Source: a virus. Taken from it: DNA of 20,728 nucleotides. A model generated the notes under the pieces. The model was not told the origin of the DNA. It saw only the letters and a program-made list of their open reading frames with translations, and searched no databases. The stretch's first letter is position 1; every line of letters starts with the position of its first letter. The stretch lies in the IMG/VR virus record IMGVR_UViG_3300001683_000068, positions 1 through 20,728 of that record; one strand, 5' to 3'. Made by a program: the position numbers and the translations under genes. Positions 758-17,679 of this stretch are shown here, piece after piece.

Positions 758-1693
758 CTAGTCTTCTTTTGCTAGATTAGCAAAGTAGGACATAGCATCC
801 TCAGGGTCATCGTCTGAAACATCCAACGCAGGCGCTGGTAACTCAGGTTCTGACATCACAGGAGGAACTGACTTACTGGGTGACTTAGGTGGTGTAGACT
901 CATCTAGATCAGAAGTTTGTTGAGGAGTCTGAGGTACGGACTCTCCTAGAACTTTTGCCATATGTGCCTTCAGTTCAGCATACGATTTGTAATTCGCAGG
1001 TGCAGTGAACTCGCCTAAATCGTGTAGTTGTCCGTAAATCCCTTCCAGTTTAGCATCATCATCAGATAACGCGGTAGGCGTAGCAAACTCGGACTTGTCA
1101 TAGTTTCGGTATCCCTCAACTTTACGAATCTTAAGTTTGAAATTTGCACCTTCCCAGAAGTCAAACGGACTGAATGGAGTTTCATCCTCGAACTGAGGTT
1201 CCATTGCTTCCATCAACTTATCAAAGATTTTCTTGCCGTACTTGTACATGAAAACTTTGCCTTCGTTGTCTGGATTAGAAGGATCGGACACAACAAGAAC
1301 GTTAGACACGTAATGCAGTTTACGCTTACGGCCTGGATTACCTGGAGTACCTGATACGATCTTCTTACCAGCATCGCCAGATTCCCACAACTTGTTATTC
1401 GCTTCGGCGACAGGGTCGTCTTGGCCAATAGAGGTGAGAGAATTTTCGATGTACCATTTACCTGTTGGTCCCTTAAAACCATGAGACCAGTATCGGACCC
1501 AAGGTGTTGGAGTAACTTCGGATTCAGGGAGAAAACGAATCACTGAGAAACCATTACCCGCTTTATCAACGGTAGGTTGCCAGAGACGTTCGTCCTTATC
1601 ATAGTTACCGCCAGAGTTGTTTTGTTGACCGGCAGTTTCGAGAAGTTTTTCAACAGATTTTGCGCGGTTCCGCTTCATTGATTCAAATGACAT
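758..1693 (-). CDS. 32: Single-stranded DNA-binding protein gp32
   Basis: T4 gp32 homologue, 311 aa. gp32 coats single-stranded DNA at the replication fork and coordinates recombination and repair. Visible parts: a basic N-terminus (MKRNRAKSVEKLLE) matching the cooperativity region; an OB-fold core with RLWQPTVDKAGNGFSVIRFL, a YWSHGF aromatic patch and VFMYKYGKKIFDKL; the segment FWEGANFKLKIRKVEGYRNY; and an acidic C-terminal tail (SDDDPEDAMSYF) used in T4 for partner binding. The zinc-ligand cysteines of T4 gp32 are not evident, as in many marine relatives. An AAGGA ribosome site precedes the ATG. It lies directly downstream of gene 33. Part of its coding sequence (1147-1189) recurs inside thymidylate synthase. 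Confidence 0.95.
   Translation of the reverse strand: MSFESMKRNRAKSVEKLLETAGQQNNSGGNYDKDERLWQPTVDKAGNGFSVIRFLPESEVTPTPWVRYWSHGFKGPTGKWYIENSLTSIGQDDPVAEANNKLWESGDAGKKIVSGTPGNPGRKRKLHYVSNVLVVSDPSNPDNEGKVFMYKYGKKIFDKLMEAMEPQFEDETPFSPFDFWEGANFKLKIRKVEGYRNYDKSEFATPTALSDDDAKLEGIYGQLHDLGEFTAPANYKSYAELKAHMAKVLGESVPQTPQQTSDLDESTPPKSPSKSVPPVMSEPELPAPALDVSDDDPEDAMSYFANLAKED
1147..1189 (-). repeat. Source copy of 43-bp segment shared with thyA
   Basis: This part of gene 32 codes EDETPFSPFDFWEG and matches 6917-6959 at 42 of 43 positions, in the same reading frame. Because FWEGAN with flanking sequence is a recognised conserved piece of gp32 and is not a normal part of thymidylate synthase, this copy is taken as the original. 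Confidence 0.9.
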
Positions 1694-1794: not shown

Positions 1795-2043
1795 TTACTC
1801 TAAAGGTAGACTATTTCGCTTCGGTAAGAAATTGAGTTGTTCCGCTTCATGCTCAATCTTACTGAGGATGGAAGGTGATAGGAACTTCCTACAGTCCTCA
1901 ACTTCCATATTCACCGTCTCACACAAATGCACAATCGCATCGATGTAAGATAGACGTTTACCAAAGACAGTATCTTCAACCATCTTCGAGAATTTCTTTT
2001 TGTTGAGCATTAGTCCATCAAGTTTCATCTGCTGTTTGCTCAT
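1795..2043 (-). CDS. 33: Late-promoter transcription accessory protein gp33
   Basis: 82 aa from Met at 2043. gp33 of T4-like phages bridges host RNA polymerase and the sliding clamp to activate late transcription. The middle and end (LSYIDAIVHLCETVNMEVED, then FLSPSILSKIEHEAEQLNFL) follow the pattern I know from gp33 of marine T4-like phages: a helical polymerase-binding part and a short C-terminal hydrophobic tail thought to touch the clamp. The gene overlaps the 3' end of the upstream gene by 26 nt and is followed by gene 32, as expected in this group. A start five codons earlier (2058) is open but has no better ribosome site. Confidence 0.85.
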   Translation of the reverse strand: MSKQQMKLDGLMLNKKKFSKMVEDTVFGKRLSYIDAIVHLCETVNMEVEDCRKFLSPSILSKIEHEAEQLNFLPKRNSLPLE

Positions 2044-2524
2044 TCCAAAAACCCACATCGCGATAAAAGAAACCCTTCGTTCGTTTCATCGTACCATCTT
2101 CATGATATGCTGGAGCAATCACCAAGAATTTTATTTCATTCTCACGATCTTCACCATAGTGTGAGTCGGACCATATACCATTACCTAGATAAGACTTCAT
2201 GTTCTTTAGATACGTCTCTGCAATGAGATGGTCGCGTCTCTGGTCACGATCTTTCGAGTCTCTATATGTCTTCATCGACTTGAGTTTATCCTGCCAGACT
2301 TTGATCCATGACTTCACTTTAGTTGGGGAGAGAAAATGATCTTCCGGCAGAGTTCTAATAGTAATATCCACCGATGCATGCTTTGATGGTCCCTTTGCCG
2401 CCCTCGCTTTTGCGAGACGTTCACCTGCCGCTGCTTTTTGCTCCGCTGACATTGGTTTCCGCTTACGCTTAACCTTAGACTTTTCTCTGACAGGTTTGCC
2501 TGGTTCTTCATATTTCTTACCCAT
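2018..2524 (-). CDS. Conserved basic phage protein of unknown function
   Basis: 168 aa from ATG at 2524, with GAGAG seven nt upstream and 4 nt after the stop of the homing endonuclease gene. The first 60 residues are very basic and rich in Lys, Pro and Ala (EKSKVKRKRKPMSAEQKAAA), probably disordered and nucleic-acid binding. The C-terminal 100 residues look folded (SWIKVWQDKLKSMKTYRD, AETYLKNMKSYLGNGIWSD, FFYRDVGFW). I remember similar proteins near genes 33 and 32 in marine T4-like phages, without a known function. A replication role is suggested only by position. Confidence 0.8.
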   Translation of the reverse strand: MGKKYEEPGKPVREKSKVKRKRKPMSAEQKAAAGERLAKARAAKGPSKHASVDITIRTLPEDHFLSPTKVKSWIKVWQDKLKSMKTYRDSKDRDQRRDHLIAETYLKNMKSYLGNGIWSDSHYGEDRENEIKFLVIAPAYHEDGTMKRTKGFFYRDVGFWNEQTADET

Positions 2525-2528
2525 TTTG

Positions 2529-3059
2529 TTACTCTCTGGTCCAGATATAACCTTTGTGTTGGTTCTTATCTTTACCGCTGCCTTTTCCCTGAATACAGTT
2601 ACTAACATGGCCTGAATTAAATCCTGCCGCGATTAATGCTTTCGTGCCTTCAAACCTGATAACTTCTCCAGTTTCGTGATGAGTCCCGATGCTTGCGCCT
2701 TTGTATCTAGTATTATTCGCTCCGATCCGTGATTCAGATATCTTTTTCTTGGTTTCTTCTGATAAAGTTCTGCCAGACGATACTGAGCCCCCGCAGCCAC
2801 CGATCTTTAGATTATATGTATCATCACGAGCAACAAATGCTTCATTGACAACCACCGCTTCCTTGTCGTACATCTCTTCCCTGGAATCACAGATAAACAA
2901 TATTTCTTTCGTGAAGTTTTCATTACCATGTTTCTTTATGGCAGGTTTTAACGTTAAACCGGATCCTAGATAATTATCATTAGGATTTTCAGTTTCATGA
3001 GCACCGATATAGATTTTATTATTGAGTAGGTTTGTGGTTTGATAGATTGTGTAGTGCAT
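2529..3059 (-). CDS. GIY-YIG homing endonuclease (SegA-like)
   Basis: 176 aa from ATG at 3059. The N-terminus HYTIYQTTNLLNNKIYIGAH is a GIY-YIG nuclease signature. The expected later elements follow: KEAVVVNEAF with a candidate catalytic Glu, and YNLKIGGCGG. Then comes a NUMOD-type DNA-binding repeat (SEETKKKISESRIGANNTRY) and a C-terminal domain ending GYIWTRE. It is a free-standing homing endonuclease that would cut phage genomes lacking it and spread by recombination. It lies 1 nt after the dehydrogenase stop and 4 nt before the next gene, so it disrupts neither neighbour. It looks intact. Confidence 0.92.
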   Translation of the reverse strand: MHYTIYQTTNLLNNKIYIGAHETENPNDNYLGSGLTLKPAIKKHGNENFTKEILFICDSREEMYDKEAVVVNEAFVARDDTYNLKIGGCGGSVSSGRTLSEETKKKISESRIGANNTRYKGASIGTHHETGEVIRFEGTKALIAAGFNSGHVSNCIQGKGSGKDKNQHKGYIWTRE

Positions 3060-3060
3060 A

Positions 3061-3843
3061 CTAATCAATTCTATACTTTTCATTGAACGAACGAACCGAC
3101 TCAAGGAATTCTACATCGGCGCCGGTGTATCTTCCAGACTCAATAATGGCAGACATGTCTTTCGGTAGGCAGTGGCCACCGTATCCTAATTTACCATCAG
3201 GTCCTGGCACCTGTGTATGCGAATGACCTATACGAGGATCGTTACAGATAGCATCAACCATTACATCGAAGTCTTCAAACCCCATCGCATTGTATATATG
3301 GTACATCTGATTAAAGAAGGCCACCTTGGTTGCAAGGAAAGTGTTCTCAACATACTTGGCGAACGCCGCTTGTTCCATGGATGTGAAACTCACTTTCTCT
3401 AGTTTAGGAAGAACAGGTTTAAACAGTTCATGCCACCAGCGCATTTCTCCACCACCATACATGGCGAATTCCTGGTTGATGAAGTCTTTGATAGGATTAG
3501 TACCCGTAGAACCTCGAAGAAACTCAGGACTGACAGTAACATTCTCTGCATCACAATACTGTAGAAACAGAGGATCAACCGCAGACTTAACAAGATATCG
3601 TTGATGATTACCATACTTATCGAATACAGCACGAACGTTATCTACTTCACATGTTCCATCGTCTCGCATAGGTGTAGCAACGCAAACGACTACGGCGACG
3701 GGGACTAACACCCTTACCATATCCTCTGTAATTTCCCATCCTAGTTGCGGGTCGTCGATGTACACATTAACATCCGGACGATTTTGTAGTGCTGCTTCGA
3801 CTGCCCTACCGACCACGCCGTATCCTGCTATAACAATATTCAT
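3061..3843 (-). CDS. UDP-glucose/GDP-mannose dehydrogenase family protein, short form
   Basis: 260 aa. The N-terminal Rossmann motif IAGYGVVGRAVEAAL binds NAD, and GYGGHCLPKD (near residue 222) holds the catalytic cysteine of the UDP-sugar 6-dehydrogenases, which oxidise the C6 hydroxyl of the sugar to a carboxylate. PEFLRGST and KYVENTFLATKVAFFNQM match the central helical dimerisation part. Cellular relatives have 390-450 residues with a C-terminal nucleotide-sugar domain. Here the protein ends shortly after the catalytic cysteine, so that domain is missing. ATGA overlap with the upstream gene. Substrate unknown; the glycosyltransferase cluster near 18-20 kb is a possible user of its product. 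Confidence 0.85.
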   Translation of the reverse strand: MNIVIAGYGVVGRAVEAALQNRPDVNVYIDDPQLGWEITEDMVRVLVPVAVVVCVATPMRDDGTCEVDNVRAVFDKYGNHQRYLVKSAVDPLFLQYCDAENVTVSPEFLRGSTGTNPIKDFINQEFAMYGGGEMRWWHELFKPVLPKLEKVSFTSMEQAAFAKYVENTFLATKVAFFNQMYHIYNAMGFEDFDVMVDAICNDPRIGHSHTQVPGPDGKLGYGGHCLPKDMSAIIESGRYTGADVEFLESVRSFNEKYRID

Positions 3844-4973
3844 CTAATAATCTCCAAGTCTGTAGTCTCTGGCGTCCATATTTCTAACTCATTACGCAAA
3901 CGACCGTCCTTCTGTAAAGACTCGTATCGTTTGCTTGCTTTGTTCTTCCACCATGTAATAATATTCTCTAATTCAAATCGATCAAAGTTCTCTCGTTTCT
4001 CTAGAGTGTCGGTCTTGAGATTGATGTAGTCTGCGACATTCGAATATCCGTACGTGGATATATATGCTCGTTTTTGTTCTGTCAATTCGGTTGCTGTTTG
4101 AATAGTCTTACAGAAGCGTTCCCATAGATCGGTATTATATTTCTTAAGTGCTTTCTTTGTTATACCAATCATCATACCAGAACGCTTCAGTTTCTTCGAG
4201 CCCTTGTCGTTGGATACTAGATGTACTCCATCGTTCCAATCACAAAACGTCTGGTATAGACTGTGGTAAGTGTCGTCGTCCATCATTGGAACGAACTTTG
4301 AGTCCGTTAGTCCTGCGTACCTTAGAAACGGTCGCATACCATCGTACTGTGAAAATGCTTTAGTTGAACCATATAATGATGTCGTCTCGAACATACAATA
4401 ACTTGTATCGTACTTTTTGTTCAGAATTCTTCGCGCATAGTGTGAACAACATATGCCCGCTAGAAGTTTACCGCCTAGGTAGTTGAACCCGAATGGTTGC
4501 GCTGGTACAATGTTAAATCCCATAATAGTGGAGTCATTGAACCTCTTCATGATGTCTTTGTTTTTTGTGTCTAATGGTTTGCCTAGGAATTCGTTGCGGG
4601 GTTTACAGTTGATCACAGGCGAACCGAATCGAATCATACCGACCACTTTGTTGCTGGTCTTCTCATAAACTATCCACTGCATACCACGTCCAGGAATATT
4701 CCTCTCGTTACAGTGAGACGATGTCAGTTCTAAATACTGTGAATACTTAGACATGTATGCATTTTCAATAACGAACTCCATGTCGTTAGGATGCATAGAA
4801 AAATCTAGAAACAGATCCTTCTCTGGTTCATAACCAGGCAGTGCATGCACCGAATTCTTCACACGTTCGATCTTCTTCATCCGCATATATTCGTCTATGC
4901 GCGTAAATCTATCGAAGAATGACATCATCTTATTGGCAGATAGCGTCGCCTGATGTTCATTTATTTCAAGCAT
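3840..4973 (-). CDS. DruA/DUF4338- or Mom-like protein
   Basis: 377 aa, function unknown. The central part has an ordered set of motifs: NKVVGMIRFGSPVINCKPRN, FLGK, STIMGFNIVPAQPFGFNYLG, LLAGICCSHYARR, FETTSLYGSTKAFSQYDGM and RPFLRYAGLTDSK. The same order (G..fGs, R..lG, a small hydrophobic strand with P and N, then ETT...G...Y and G.T) is what I recall for DUF4338, the family of Druantia component DruA, and more loosely for Mom-type DNA-modification acyltransferases. The C-terminal third is Lys-rich and helical. If the resemblance holds it would act on DNA. Translation starts at 4973 or at Met 16/17; a possible promoter sits directly upstream. Confidence 0.8.
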   Translation of the reverse strand: MLEINEHQATLSANKMMSFFDRFTRIDEYMRMKKIERVKNSVHALPGYEPEKDLFLDFSMHPNDMEFVIENAYMSKYSQYLELTSSHCNERNIPGRGMQWIVYEKTSNKVVGMIRFGSPVINCKPRNEFLGKPLDTKNKDIMKRFNDSTIMGFNIVPAQPFGFNYLGGKLLAGICCSHYARRILNKKYDTSYCMFETTSLYGSTKAFSQYDGMRPFLRYAGLTDSKFVPMMDDDTYHSLYQTFCDWNDGVHLVSNDKGSKKLKRSGMMIGITKKALKKYNTDLWERFCKTIQTATELTEQKRAYISTYGYSNVADYINLKTDTLEKRENFDRFELENIITWWKNKASKRYESLQKDGRLRNELEIWTPETTDLEIIR

Positions 4974-6423: not shown

Positions 6424-7325
6424 ACTGAAACTTTTCCTTTAATCAATGGGTGATGTTCATACCCGACTAGTTCGAAATCACTATAAACAAAATCATCTAT
6501 CGACTTCTGATCACCATGAATTTCTATAGTAGGAAAACTATAAGGTGGTCTCGATAATTGTGTTAATACTTGTGTGTCATGGTTATTATATAGGTGTGTG
6601 TCTCCGAACGACATTACCAACTGTGATGCTTTGTGGTTAGTTATCTTCGCTATCATATGAGTCAGGAGCGCATAGGACGCAATGTTAAACGGTACACCAA
6701 GAAACCAATCTGCAGATCGTTGGTACATATGGCATTGCAGATGTCTCTCACCGTCAATCAGGTACGACTTGAATTGAAAGAATGCGTGACAGGGTACAAG
6801 TGCCATTTGATCTAGTTGATTAGGATTCCATGCTGATACAATGATGCGTCTGGAGTCGGGATCGTTATTGAGTAGATCGATGGCATTCTGTAATTGGTCG
6901 ATACCATCGCTTTCTTCACCTTCCCAGAAGTCAAACGGACTGCATGGAGTTTCATCCTCACCATAGTAGTTGTGCGCGTCAAATCTTCGCCATTGGTGAC
7001 CATACACTGGTCCAAGATCTCCTTCTTCGTCTGCCCACTCATCCCATATCCGAACCTTGTTGTCCTGTAGATATTTGATGTTCGTGTTGCCTGATATGAA
7101 CCAGAGCAGTTCATGAGCGGCGGATGGAAAGTGTATCTTCTTTGTAGTCAACAGAGGAAATTTGTTATCAGATAAATCAAACTTCAATTGATGACCAAAG
7201 ATCGACCGTGTTCCTGTGCCTGTTCTATCGTCCGTGGGAATTCCATCGTCGTATAAGGACTGCATGTGACGTTGGTATGCATACTCTTCTTGATTCACAA
7301 ATTGTCCTTCCTCAAAGTCATACAC
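6420..7325 (-). CDS. thyA: Thymidylate synthase with a gp32-derived insert
   Basis: 301 aa. ThyA methylates dUMP to dTMP with methylenetetrahydrofolate. All core motifs are present: DDRTGTGTRSIFGHQLKFDL, LLTTKKIHF, ELLWFISGNTNIKYL, GDLGPVYGHQWR, RRIIVSAWNP, the catalytic Cys in MALVPCHAFFQF, QRSADWFLGVPFNIASYALL and GDTHLYNNH. Between VYGHQWRRFD and GIDQLQ, where relatives have a short variable loop, there is an insert GEDETPCSPFDFWEGEE whose DNA matches gene 32. The start is GTG at 7325, as the conserved N-terminal helix (EEYAYQRHMQSLYDDG) needs it. The enzyme looks functional apart from the insert, which lies away from the catalytic motifs in sequence. Confidence 0.95.
   Translation of the reverse strand: MYDFEEGQFVNQEEYAYQRHMQSLYDDGIPTDDRTGTGTRSIFGHQLKFDLSDNKFPLLTTKKIHFPSAAHELLWFISGNTNIKYLQDNKVRIWDEWADEEGDLGPVYGHQWRRFDAHNYYGEDETPCSPFDFWEGEESDGIDQLQNAIDLLNNDPDSRRIIVSAWNPNQLDQMALVPCHAFFQFKSYLIDGERHLQCHMYQRSADWFLGVPFNIASYALLTHMIAKITNHKASQLVMSFGDTHLYNNHDTQVLTQLSRPPYSFPTIEIHGDQKSIDDFVYSDFELVGYEHHPLIKGKVSV
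6917..6959 (-). repeat. Ectopic gene 32 segment inside thyA
   Basis: 43 bp matching 1147-1189 with one difference (position 6943 against 1173, changing Phe to Cys). It codes EDETPCSPFDFWEG in the same frame as in gp32. Similarity stops sharply at both ends. Confidence 0.9.
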
Positions 7326-7856: not shown

Positions 7857-7950
7857 AGATGTTATAGGTCAGTAAAACCCACTGGCATGGGGACTTCGCT
7901 GCTGCCAGGCAACCGCGCCCTGGGATAAGGATTGTGCGCCTATAACATCT
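7857..7950 (-). ncRNA. Unassigned structured RNA / stem-loop with T-run
   Basis: AGATGTTATAGG (7939-7950, - strand) pairs perfectly over 12 bp with CCTATAACATCT (7857-7868), enclosing 70 nt. The closing strand is followed by TTTTTAAT. Inside, CCTGG can pair with CCAGG upstream or, as part of CTGGCA, with TGCCAG downstream, so two hairpins exclude each other; CCCA and TGGG can close around them. There is no coding frame. It follows the tmRNA on the same strand and may terminate its transcript, be a separate small RNA, or be a switch for the gene starting at 7814. No known RNA family recognised. Confidence 0.6.
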
Positions 7951-7960
7951 ATTAAATAGT

Positions 7961-7993
7961 GCTGGTCTTATTGGATAAGAAAGAAAGACCAGC
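7961..7993 (-). other. 9-bp stem near the tmRNA 3' end
   Basis: GCTGGTCTT and AAGACCAGC (7985-7993 with 7961-7969) form a perfect 9-bp stem with a 15-nt pyrimidine-rich loop, shortly after the helix-5-like stem. It probably stands where a pseudoknot or terminal hairpin of the coding piece is expected. Confidence 0.6.
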
Positions 7994-8012
7994 AAAAACT
8001 CCCATGAGGGTG

Positions 8013-8054
8013 TTACGCCGCTAGGGCAACCTCATCAAATATCGCATCGTTTGC
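8013..8054 (-). other. tmRNA tag reading frame
   Basis: GCA AAC GAT GCG ATA TTT GAT ... GCG GCG TAA codes ANDAIFDEVALAA, preceded by AATAATT, like the A-rich bases before the resume codon of other tmRNAs. With the Ala delivered by the charged RNA the tag would be AANDAIFDEVALAA. The ALAA end is the form recognised by ClpXP and related proteases. Confidence 0.92.
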
Positions 8055-8267
8055 AATTATTGTTGCGACCCTGTTTAACGTCAGCATCATTGACGATTCT
8101 CGGTGTGTATTCAGTTGCCTGTCGAAACCTTGCATCCCCATCAAAAGTGTACTTGTGGCCTGAACGAATCGCGAGGTTGATCATTTCCTCTGGGCGTTAA
8201 CCTATTGTGGTACATGTACACTTATGGTGGAGATGGCGGCATCGAAGCCGCGTCCAGACTTCTTATC

Positions 8268-8402
8268 TCACACTTCAACGAATAGTATTTTACGACCTTT
8301 CAACCATCCTTCAGGTATTGGATCGTGCTTATTAATCCTTATACTTCTTTTTTCGGTAAGAGAATAAATCCACATCTTACCATACATTGAATTCTTTTTG
8401 CC
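8268..8402 (-). pseudogene. C-terminal fragment of a homing endonuclease
   Basis: The frame reads GKKNSMYGKMWIYSLTEKRS, then INKHDPIPEGWLKGRKI and FVEV. GKKNxMYGK followed by MWIY...DPIPEGWLKGRK is a characteristic C-terminal region of GIY-YIG or HNH homing endonucleases of T4-like phages. No nuclease domain is in frame upstream. The earliest local Met is at 8387, which would give 39 aa. The stop overlaps the first bases of the tmRNA acceptor piece. It is best seen as the relic of a mobile gene; a short DNA-binding product cannot be excluded. Confidence 0.6.
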
Positions 8403-12491: not shown

Positions 12492-13274
12492 TTATACATT
12501 AAACATGCCTAAACTGAAATATTTATTTATAGTATCGAAACACGATTGAAGTTCATCAGATATATTATCAAATTTCTTATTCGTGTAATTCGTGTAAGCT
12601 AATGCGGCCGAAATTCTTAATGATCTATCATTGTTTTTATCTTTGATTATTTCCCCCAATAGTTTACTACTGGGATTATAACTATTTAAGAAAATAGCTA
12701 GTTTAAGTTGGAAATATTCTATTTCAGATAAATTATATTCAGTGTGCAATTGTTCTGCTAAATTTATCTTTTCTCCATATTGTGTACTTATGCAAGAATC
12801 AGATGTTGACACTGTTCCTTCATGTCTTAATATATATTCTGTAAAAAACTTTAATAACTCATTAGTAGTTATTGATTTTTCTATTGGTTTTTTCTTGGCG
12901 GATTCTGCCATTTTTAATATTTCAGAGTAGATTGTTAATTTTAGTTGTGCTAAGTTATGTGGTTTGGATACATAAGAATGCACAGATCCACTATTTATAG
13001 CATTTATTAAATCTGTAGTATTAGTACTTCCACTTATTGCTATTCTAACAATGGACGGGTATTTTCTTCTCATTTCGAGAAAAAGGTCTATTCCCGACCC
13101 TGTAGGCATGTTGATATCTGAAATTACGCAATCAATAACCTCGTTTTCTAATATTTTTAAAGCTTCTAGGGTTCCCGAAGCAAATAAACAAGAATAATCT
13201 GTATTAGAAAACTCACGCTTAAAAAGTCTTAACATCCTAGTTTCGTCGTCTACAAATAGTAGCTTACGATTCAT
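12492..13274 (-). CDS. Response regulator receiver protein
   Basis: 260 aa from ATG at 13274, overlapping the upstream stop as ATGA. Residues 1-125 form a receiver domain: KLLFVDDETRMLRLFKREF (acidic pair), CVISDINMPTGSGIDLFLEM (phospho-acceptor Asp), IAISGSTNTTDLINAINSG (switch Ser/Thr) and YVSKPHN (conserved Lys). The remaining 135 residues are helical and match no output domain I recognise; they could be a degenerate HD-type domain. The gene is markedly more AT-rich than its neighbours, which suggests recent acquisition from a bacterium. In the cell it could take phosphate from a host kinase and interfere with host signalling. Confidence 0.88.
   Translation of the reverse strand: MNRKLLFVDDETRMLRLFKREFSNTDYSCLFASGTLEALKILENEVIDCVISDINMPTGSGIDLFLEMRRKYPSIVRIAISGSTNTTDLINAINSGSVHSYVSKPHNLAQLKLTIYSEILKMAESAKKKPIEKSITTNELLKFFTEYILRHEGTVSTSDSCISTQYGEKINLAEQLHTEYNLSEIEYFQLKLAIFLNSYNPSSKLLGEIIKDKNNDRSLRISAALAYTNYTNKKFDNISDELQSCFDTINKYFSLGMFNV
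12524..12531 (-). promoter_or_regulatory. T4-type late promoter TATAAATA
   Basis: Exact octamer on the - strand inside the last codons of the response-regulator gene, 112 nt upstream of the small gene starting at 12412. It could drive the 12412-11778 pair late, but being in AT-rich coding DNA it may be chance. Confidence 0.35.
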
Positions 13275-13537
13275 GTATTTGTTACTTCGTGTTGGAACGT
13301 GTATAGGACAACCCAACTTGCAGGATTCCCAGGAGGATGATCCGCTGCACGGATTGCTCCAGTCATTGTGTGTTTGTAAACAGTGATTGTAATAGTATTA
13401 TAATCGTCTGGTTGATGAGAATGTTTGGCCCAAAAAGCAACGTGGTCCTCGCAACCTTCCCACAGGTCTAGCCATTTCCCGTATGCAGGGCCAAAAGCAT
13501 GGGCTACCGGCAGACGAGGATGTTTCTTCTTGCTCAT
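13271..13537 (-). CDS. Small hypothetical protein
   Basis: 88 aa, overlapping both neighbours by ATGA. Basic start MSKKKHPRLPVAHAFGPAYG, then KWLDLWEGCEDHVAFWAKHS and a beta-rich end (YNTITITVYKHTMTGAIRAA; SWVVLYTFQHEVTNT). The Trp-rich C-terminal half could form a small sheet. No family recognised. First of a chain of small coupled genes upstream of the response regulator. Confidence 0.65.
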   Translation of the reverse strand: MSKKKHPRLPVAHAFGPAYGKWLDLWEGCEDHVAFWAKHSHQPDDYNTITITVYKHTMTGAIRAADHPPGNPASWVVLYTFQHEVTNT

Positions 13538-17004: not shown

Positions 17005-17679
17005 TTAAAGGGAATTTCGAGTCTTGAATAGATCGATTGTTTCTAGGAGGGTTTTCGACCAGGAGTCTCTATGTTCGACGAACACCTGTGGTTTACTATG
17101 GTCGACTGCTATGATGGTGACTAACTGAGTGATGGGTACACCCGTCCGTTCTTCCCACATAATAGCGTATGCGGATTCTTGAATGAAGTAATTTTCAACC
17201 CAAGATTTGCGTTTGGTTTTTGCTGAAGTTTTCCAGTCAACGATTGACAGTTGACCGTCGAACTCGCCGACAAGGTCGACGCGTCCAGCGACACCTAGTT
17301 GGTGTGAATACAATGCTGCTTCCTGTTCATAGATAAGACCAAGTCGACTATCTAATATAGGTTTCACTGACATGAAGTTAGCAACGACATGAGGCATGTA
17401 TCCGACAGCGTAGTCCGGATCGTTTGCCACATATTTCTCTATCATCTCGTGAACTTTAGTACCACGATTCGACGCACGAAAAGAAACCTTTCTCGCCTCT
17501 TCTTCACCCACACGTTCTTTCCATGCGGCGATATGCTCTTCCGAGAGTATCGAAAGAACAGTCGTTATGGAAGGATACCTTTCGCCGGTTGGGGTAGCGT
17601 ATGTTCTACCTGTTGACAAGGTAGTCGCTGTCAGATCATCATAACCTAACAGCGACTCTTTTCGATGAACGAATGACAT
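17005..17679 (-). CDS. PD-(D/E)XK exonuclease (RecB/Cas4-like)
   Basis: 224 aa. Motifs in order: SFRASNRGTKVHEMIEKYV (motif I with the His/Glu helix, about residues 67-85), GRVDLVGEFDGQLSIVDWKT (Asp of motif II and D-x-K of motif III) and IQESAYAIMW (motif IV, QxxxY). This is the layout of RecB-family single-strand nucleases including phage exonucleases and mitochondrial MGME1. It would trim or process DNA ends in replication or recombination. The start at 17679 is 15 nt after the upstream stop, with a weak ribosome site. All catalytic residues appear to be present. Confidence 0.85.
   Translation of the reverse strand: MSFVHRKESLLGYDDLTATTLSTGRTYATPTGERYPSITTVLSILSEEHIAAWKERVGEEEARKVSFRASNRGTKVHEMIEKYVANDPDYAVGYMPHVVANFMSVKPILDSRLGLIYEQEAALYSHQLGVAGRVDLVGEFDGQLSIVDWKTSAKTKRKSWVENYFIQESAYAIMWEERTGVPITQLVTIIAVDHSKPQVFVEHRDSWSKTLLETIDLFKTRNSL

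Follow-up and report, generated by a model that had tools for sequence, protein, structure and literature searches.

The closest described system is the circularly permuted tmRNA of Melnitz, a T4-like phage of Methylophilales (MZ577097), where a two-piece tmRNA is encoded directly upstream of gp33 (PMC9004378). The Melnitz gene follows a PDDEXK nuclease gene and closely precedes gp33 and gp32 on the same strand; its RNA has the alphaproteobacterial T-loop GGCAGUA and the tag ANDNYVPVDYALAA, and a glutamine riboswitch has been reported for this phage. The same 2022 study distinguished 133 phage tmRNA structures, of which 53 were in two pieces (50 of them from marine or aquatic samples), and proposed that phage tmRNAs serve the upkeep of hijacked machinery or tag host proteins for recycling (PMC9004378). 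In Caulobacter, the precursor is cut into two pieces by tRNA-processing enzymes, according to Keiler (2000) as cited in PMC9004378. Two kinds of cellular permuted tmRNA also bear on the comparison, namely those of betaproteobacteria (RF01850), which have seven-base T-loops of the UUCRA type and an AND...ALAA tag, and those of the Rhizobiales (Mesorhizobium, Aliihoeflea), which have a six-base UUCGAW loop closed by a Y53-R61 pair.

The window, i.e. the whole stretch of DNA analysed here (20,728 bases, a virus record), encodes a circularly permuted tmRNA on its minus strand (8330-7961, outer ends approximate). In an Rfam search with cmscan, RF04321 (tmRNA_permuted) matched 8283-8013 on the minus strand over its full length (model positions 1-213) with 94.4 bits and an E value of 1.7e-17, twice the gathering score of 47 bits that serves as cut-off. 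Independently, ARAGORN called a permuted tmRNA (tmRNA*) at 7922-8316 with the tag ANDAIFDEVALAA. The two programs thus agree with the original prediction, made from the sequence alone, of a phage-encoded permuted tmRNA with its own tag, for which a covariance search had been proposed as the check. Among clade models, beta_tmRNA (RF01850) was the best; it aligned to 8328-7943 with 52.8 bits, below its cut-off of 84. The parts of the RNA are as follows.

8013-8283, minus strand: permuted tmRNA gene, covariance-model core (RF04321 and ARAGORN).
8225-8330, minus strand: acceptor piece, the 5' part of the transcript with an approximate 5' end, holding the helix 2 3' strand, T-arm, acceptor 3' strand and CCA (RF04321 and beta_tmRNA alignments, sequence).
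8235-8225, minus strand: acceptor 3' strand CAUCUCC followed by ACCA (read from the sequence).
8236-8251, minus strand: T-arm GCGGC-UUCGAU-GCCGC with a 5-bp stem and a six-base loop (an arm class present in 118 viral contigs).
8140-8224, minus strand: intervening segment of 85 nt (sequence).
8223-8216 with 8152-8145, minus strand: 8-bp stem AAGUGUAC/GUACACUU closing the intervening segment (sequence and predicted fold).
7961-8139, minus strand: coding piece with an approximate 3' end, holding the acceptor 5' strand, D-region, helix 2 5' strand, tag, helix 5 and 3' hairpin (RF04321 and beta_tmRNA alignments, sequence).
8013-8054, minus strand: tag frame GCA...UAA, encoding ANDAIFDEVALAA (ARAGORN and sequence).
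8006-8033, minus strand: helix 5 hairpin, containing the tag stop codon (sequence).
7961-7993, minus strand: hairpin GCUGGUCUU...AAGACCAGC, which corresponds in the alignment to the beta_tmRNA 3' hairpin.
7857-7950, minus strand: 94-nt element with a perfect 12-bp inverted repeat, then UUUUUAA (fold z-score).

The CCA-ended acceptor piece comes first, with its CCA end at 8225, followed by the intervening segment and by GGGGAUG from 8139. All seven pairs of the acceptor stem GGGGAUG/CAUCUCC are present, including G3-U70, the resume codon is GCA, and the tag ends in ALAA with its stop inside helix 5; in all these respects, as in the 8-bp stem closing the intervening segment, the predicted architecture was borne out. 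The predicted range (7955-8277) placed the inner parts correctly, while the gene is on the minus strand and its RNA is probably longer at both ends, as in the beta_tmRNA alignment. Helix 2, which had been predicted to join the two pieces, is paired in the covariance alignment, albeit short and with several non-standard pairs; its energy gives no strong additional support, as 128 of 1000 shuffles reach the -11.6 kcal/mol of the duplex and 61 of 200 equal the energy of the cofolded whole pieces. Compared with the RF04321 consensus, the T-loop and the D-region linker (three bases vs four) are each one base shorter. The element at 7857-7950 has a better predicted fold than the majority of its shuffled versions, with z-scores of -2.48 for the minus and -3.18 for the plus strand, and matched no Rfam family; it may be a terminator or 3' structure that could end the tmRNA transcript. 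A promoter search for the tmRNA gave no clear candidate above chance level, and, unlike in Melnitz, Rfam matched no riboswitch in the window, including a glutamine riboswitch beside the tmRNA.

Based on these features, we propose that the window very probably encodes a permuted phage tmRNA that is intact and built for trans-translation. A single transcript would fold such that the acceptor stem closes over the 85-nt intervening segment, and, by analogy with known two-piece tmRNAs, host RNase P and tRNA 3'-end processing would remove this segment, which would then be missing from the mature RNA. The resulting two pieces would stay joined through the acceptor stem and helix 2. The G3-U70 wobble is the pair used by AlaRS, through which this enzyme would charge the tmRNA. 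Host SmpB would take the charged tmRNA to stalled ribosomes, which would append ANDAIFDEVALAA, halt at UAA and be released; tagged proteins would end in NDAIFDEVALAA, and ClpXP would degrade them via the ALAA end. The phage may benefit by keeping ribosomes in play while its nucleases break host and phage mRNA, a tentative suggestion that we rate at somewhat below even chances. No SmpB was found in 30 tmRNA-bearing phage records, most of them fragments, so that the phage RNA probably relies on the host for SmpB, AlaRS and ClpXP.

The same need for host SmpB would also suit an RNA that is charged or SmpB-bound yet tags inefficiently and thereby inhibits host trans-translation. For such a decoy there is a reported precedent in the tag-less tmRNA-like RNA of mycobacteriophage DS6A, and a similar short tRNA-like-domain molecule is reported to inhibit tmRNA, perhaps by titrating SmpB (PMC4131195; PMC11915505). 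However, a decoy needs neither tag frame, stop codon, helix 5 nor ALAA end, all of which are kept in the window and in nearly all relatives, and we consider this explanation very unlikely.

The tag itself appears to be the phage's own. A pattern for ANDAIFDEVALAA and stop that allowed all codon choices was absent from 84,980 bacterial and archaeal genomes, and a looser pattern run over viral contigs matched a near-identical record alone. In the part of the sets that was tallied, viral tags are nearly all of the form AND...AA, with 46 of 49 distinct tags ending in AA. Burkholderiales one-piece tmRNAs carry the tags ANDERFALAA and ANDETYALAA; since several viral two-piece genes encode exactly ANDERFALAA, infection by some phages probably gives hosts with a one-piece tmRNA an additional, two-piece one whose tag is host-like.

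The genomic surroundings identify the gene as part of a T4-like phage, as had been predicted. The contig encodes gp32, a gp33 homologue, ThyA and a PDDEXK nuclease, with gp32, ThyA and the exonuclease falling into phage families, and three of these genes served as positional markers.

758-1693, minus strand: gp32 single-stranded DNA-binding protein, downstream marker (phrog_224, E 2.6e-108).
1795-2058, minus strand: gp33-like late-transcription coactivator, downstream marker (36% in tblastn to the annotated Melnitz coactivator gene).
17005-17679, minus strand: PDDEXK exonuclease, upstream marker (phrog_298, E 8.4e-70).

A scan of viral contigs by a pattern of RNA features alone returned at least 120 contigs. 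Among the matches listed, 95 of these at least 120 contigs encode one or more of four window marker proteins, the PDDEXK nuclease lies upstream of the tmRNA on the same strand in all 73 contigs that have both, and gp33 and gp32 lie downstream on the same strand in 64 of 65 and 51 of 52 cases, respectively. The locus thus reads PDDEXK nuclease, tmRNA, gp33, gp32 on one strand, the order found in Melnitz, and the window keeps it in a looser form (nuclease 17679-17005, tmRNA 8283-8013, gp33 2058-1795, gp32 1693-758). When the search was instead begun from gp32, 27 of the 50 records with a gp32 relative also held a permuted tmRNA above cut-off. Because the marker order is conserved in contigs that were found by RNA pattern, the tmRNA is a resident gene of the gp33-gp32 region in many T4-like phages. 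The original prediction regarded two-piece tmRNAs as unusual for T4-like genomes; with Melnitz published (PMC9004378) and many such contigs at hand, two-piece tmRNA genes are common in environmental T4-like phages.

The conserved order over a wide set of T4-like contigs also argues against the recent acquisition of an ssrA gene from a host, for instance via an integration site, without a role in the phage. Integration commonly occurs at ssrA, and gene exchange with a temperate phage has been offered as one origin (PMC9004378). Nevertheless, the tag peptide occurred in none of the 84,980 genomes sampled, the closest RNAs are viral and no integrase was found among the window proteins tested, leaving a passenger gene highly improbable.

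Other features of the contig were noted in passing. The window gp32 is closest to those of Melnitz and cyanophages, at about 51%; a search of phage records for near DNA relatives of the window and a distant DNA search with the tmRNA gave no match. A short open reading frame at 5418-5969 matches Melnitz gene 78 and is not gp59. A second virus record, IMGVR_UViG_3300049899_000204 (L122/L123), shares 99.88% identity with the window overall, and 241 nt of the RNA match without a difference. In L123, window bases 2680-2989 are missing, which removes most of a GIY-YIG/NUMOD3 homing endonuclease gene (2529-3104), and thus one phage exists in forms with and without this gene. The gp32 (1147-1189) and thyA (6917-6959) genes have in common a 43-nt stretch with 42 identical positions, giving SPFDFWEG in both proteins; the stretch in ThyA looks like an inserted copy. 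The contig further encodes a response regulator receiver domain protein (12492-13316; PF00072, 8.4e-19), a type of gene that is unusual in T4-like phages, and a phrog_19197 protein (3840-4973) with a DruA match (PF14236, 1.9e-10), a relative of a Druantia defence protein.

A feature that had gone unnoticed in the original prediction is the T-loop, UUCGAU, which has six bases vs the usual seven and is closed by a C-G pair at 53:61. This pair is nearly always G-C in tRNA and in seven-base tmRNA arms. A pattern for six-base loops that left the 53:61 pairing and the stem open, with mismatches allowed, matched 118 viral contigs, each with five of five stem pairs, and position 53:61 was C-G in 89, U-A in 29 and mismatched in none. 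At least 98 of the 118 carry a permuted tmRNA with a perfect acceptor stem, vs 11 permuted among the 23 places matched in cellular genomes; the cellular counts are lower bounds because the pattern requires an encoded CCA, and the cases called permuted by ARAGORN carry alphaproteobacterial record titles. Across 28 distinct arms, the covariation score was 0.364 vs 0.099 for shuffled arms, also above slid controls, and three T-stem pairs show changes on both sides; the acceptor pairs had been selected for by the pattern, the T-stem pairs had not. Among the matches listed from the scan by RNA features, 3 of at least 120 contigs have a six-base loop. The window thus departs from the canonical seven-base T-loop, which is usual though not strict for RF04321, and the 11 cellular permuted tmRNAs indicate that a six-base loop is no bar to membership of this family.

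An assembly error was rejected as the source of the six-base loop: the near-identical record with the same T-loop makes it very unlikely, and the 28 distinct covarying arms have such a loop as well. The notion of a single phage clade with six-base loops was likewise unsupported, the tree needing several changes. The shorter T-loop and D-linker could weaken tmRNA function; yet the reading that these two deletions relative to the RF04321 consensus mark a tmRNA losing function is highly improbable, given covarying closing pairs in 118 viral contigs, six-base loops in intact Rhizobiales tmRNAs with the tag ANDNYAEARLAA, and the intact state of every other part. As side observations, viral T-loops include UGCRA types alongside UUCRA, GGCRGUA and six-base forms, and in the permuted tmRNAs L147, L151, L158 and similar ones the T-arm was not resolved by a simple finder.

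Identical sequence aside, the RNAs closest in blastn are viral and have six-base loops (L276, L346, L253 and others), and the window pairs with L346 in three trees (supports 95/88, 91/66 and 99/97). The Rhizobiales six-base tmRNAs are permuted as in the window, whereas their closing pair is U-A rather than C-G and they fall into an alphaproteobacterial lineage in the tree. GGCRGUA is the T-loop in 29 of 30 alphaproteobacterial loci and in Melnitz, in contrast to UUCGAU in the window, so that the alphaproteobacterial origin proposed for the Melnitz tmRNA is not transferable and was rejected for the window. Two pattern searches over 240 alphaproteobacterial genomes returned nothing, or genomes already known, because alphaproteobacteria use another T-loop. 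The betaproteobacterial RNAs resemble the window in loop type and in the AND...ALAA form of the tag but differ in having seven loop bases.

Outside alphaproteobacteria, few cellular genomes in our sample carry a two-piece tmRNA: the RF01850 cut-off was passed in 1 genome among the 299 sampled from Pseudomonadota and in 7 among the 200 from Burkholderiales, the latter order being deduced from the tags and from the match to beta_tmRNA. In an unconstrained tree, seven cellular beta two-piece sequences stood among the viral ones (99/99), which suggests a phage origin. However, a tree in which the beta two-piece sequences were held with Burkholderiales one-piece tmRNAs was not rejected (AU p 0.605); the alignment was short (253 columns) and contained no cyanobacterial sequence. 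It is conceivable, though on balance unlikely, that T4-like phages have served as an ancient and independent reservoir of two-piece tmRNAs, and that the scattered beta two-piece genes were acquired from such phages rather than by permutation of a host gene. In one betaproteobacterial genome (G842), an integrase-like gene (L516, 12370-14178) lies near the two-piece tmRNA, which suggests that an island adjoins it; another tmRNA-like match, a weak one, is located about 9 kb away.

Taken together, the two-piece tmRNA is no oddity: in environmental T4-like phages, it is a regular gene with a conserved position close to the replication genes, which argues that these phages bring trans-translation along for infection. 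The long-open question of what a phage tmRNA is for thereby becomes testable in any cultured relative. With some phage tags identical to the Burkholderiales ANDERFALAA and others lacking a cellular match, host mimicry can be compared with the use of an own tag, and the six-base T-loop offers a natural test of the minimal T-loop length in a working tmRNA.
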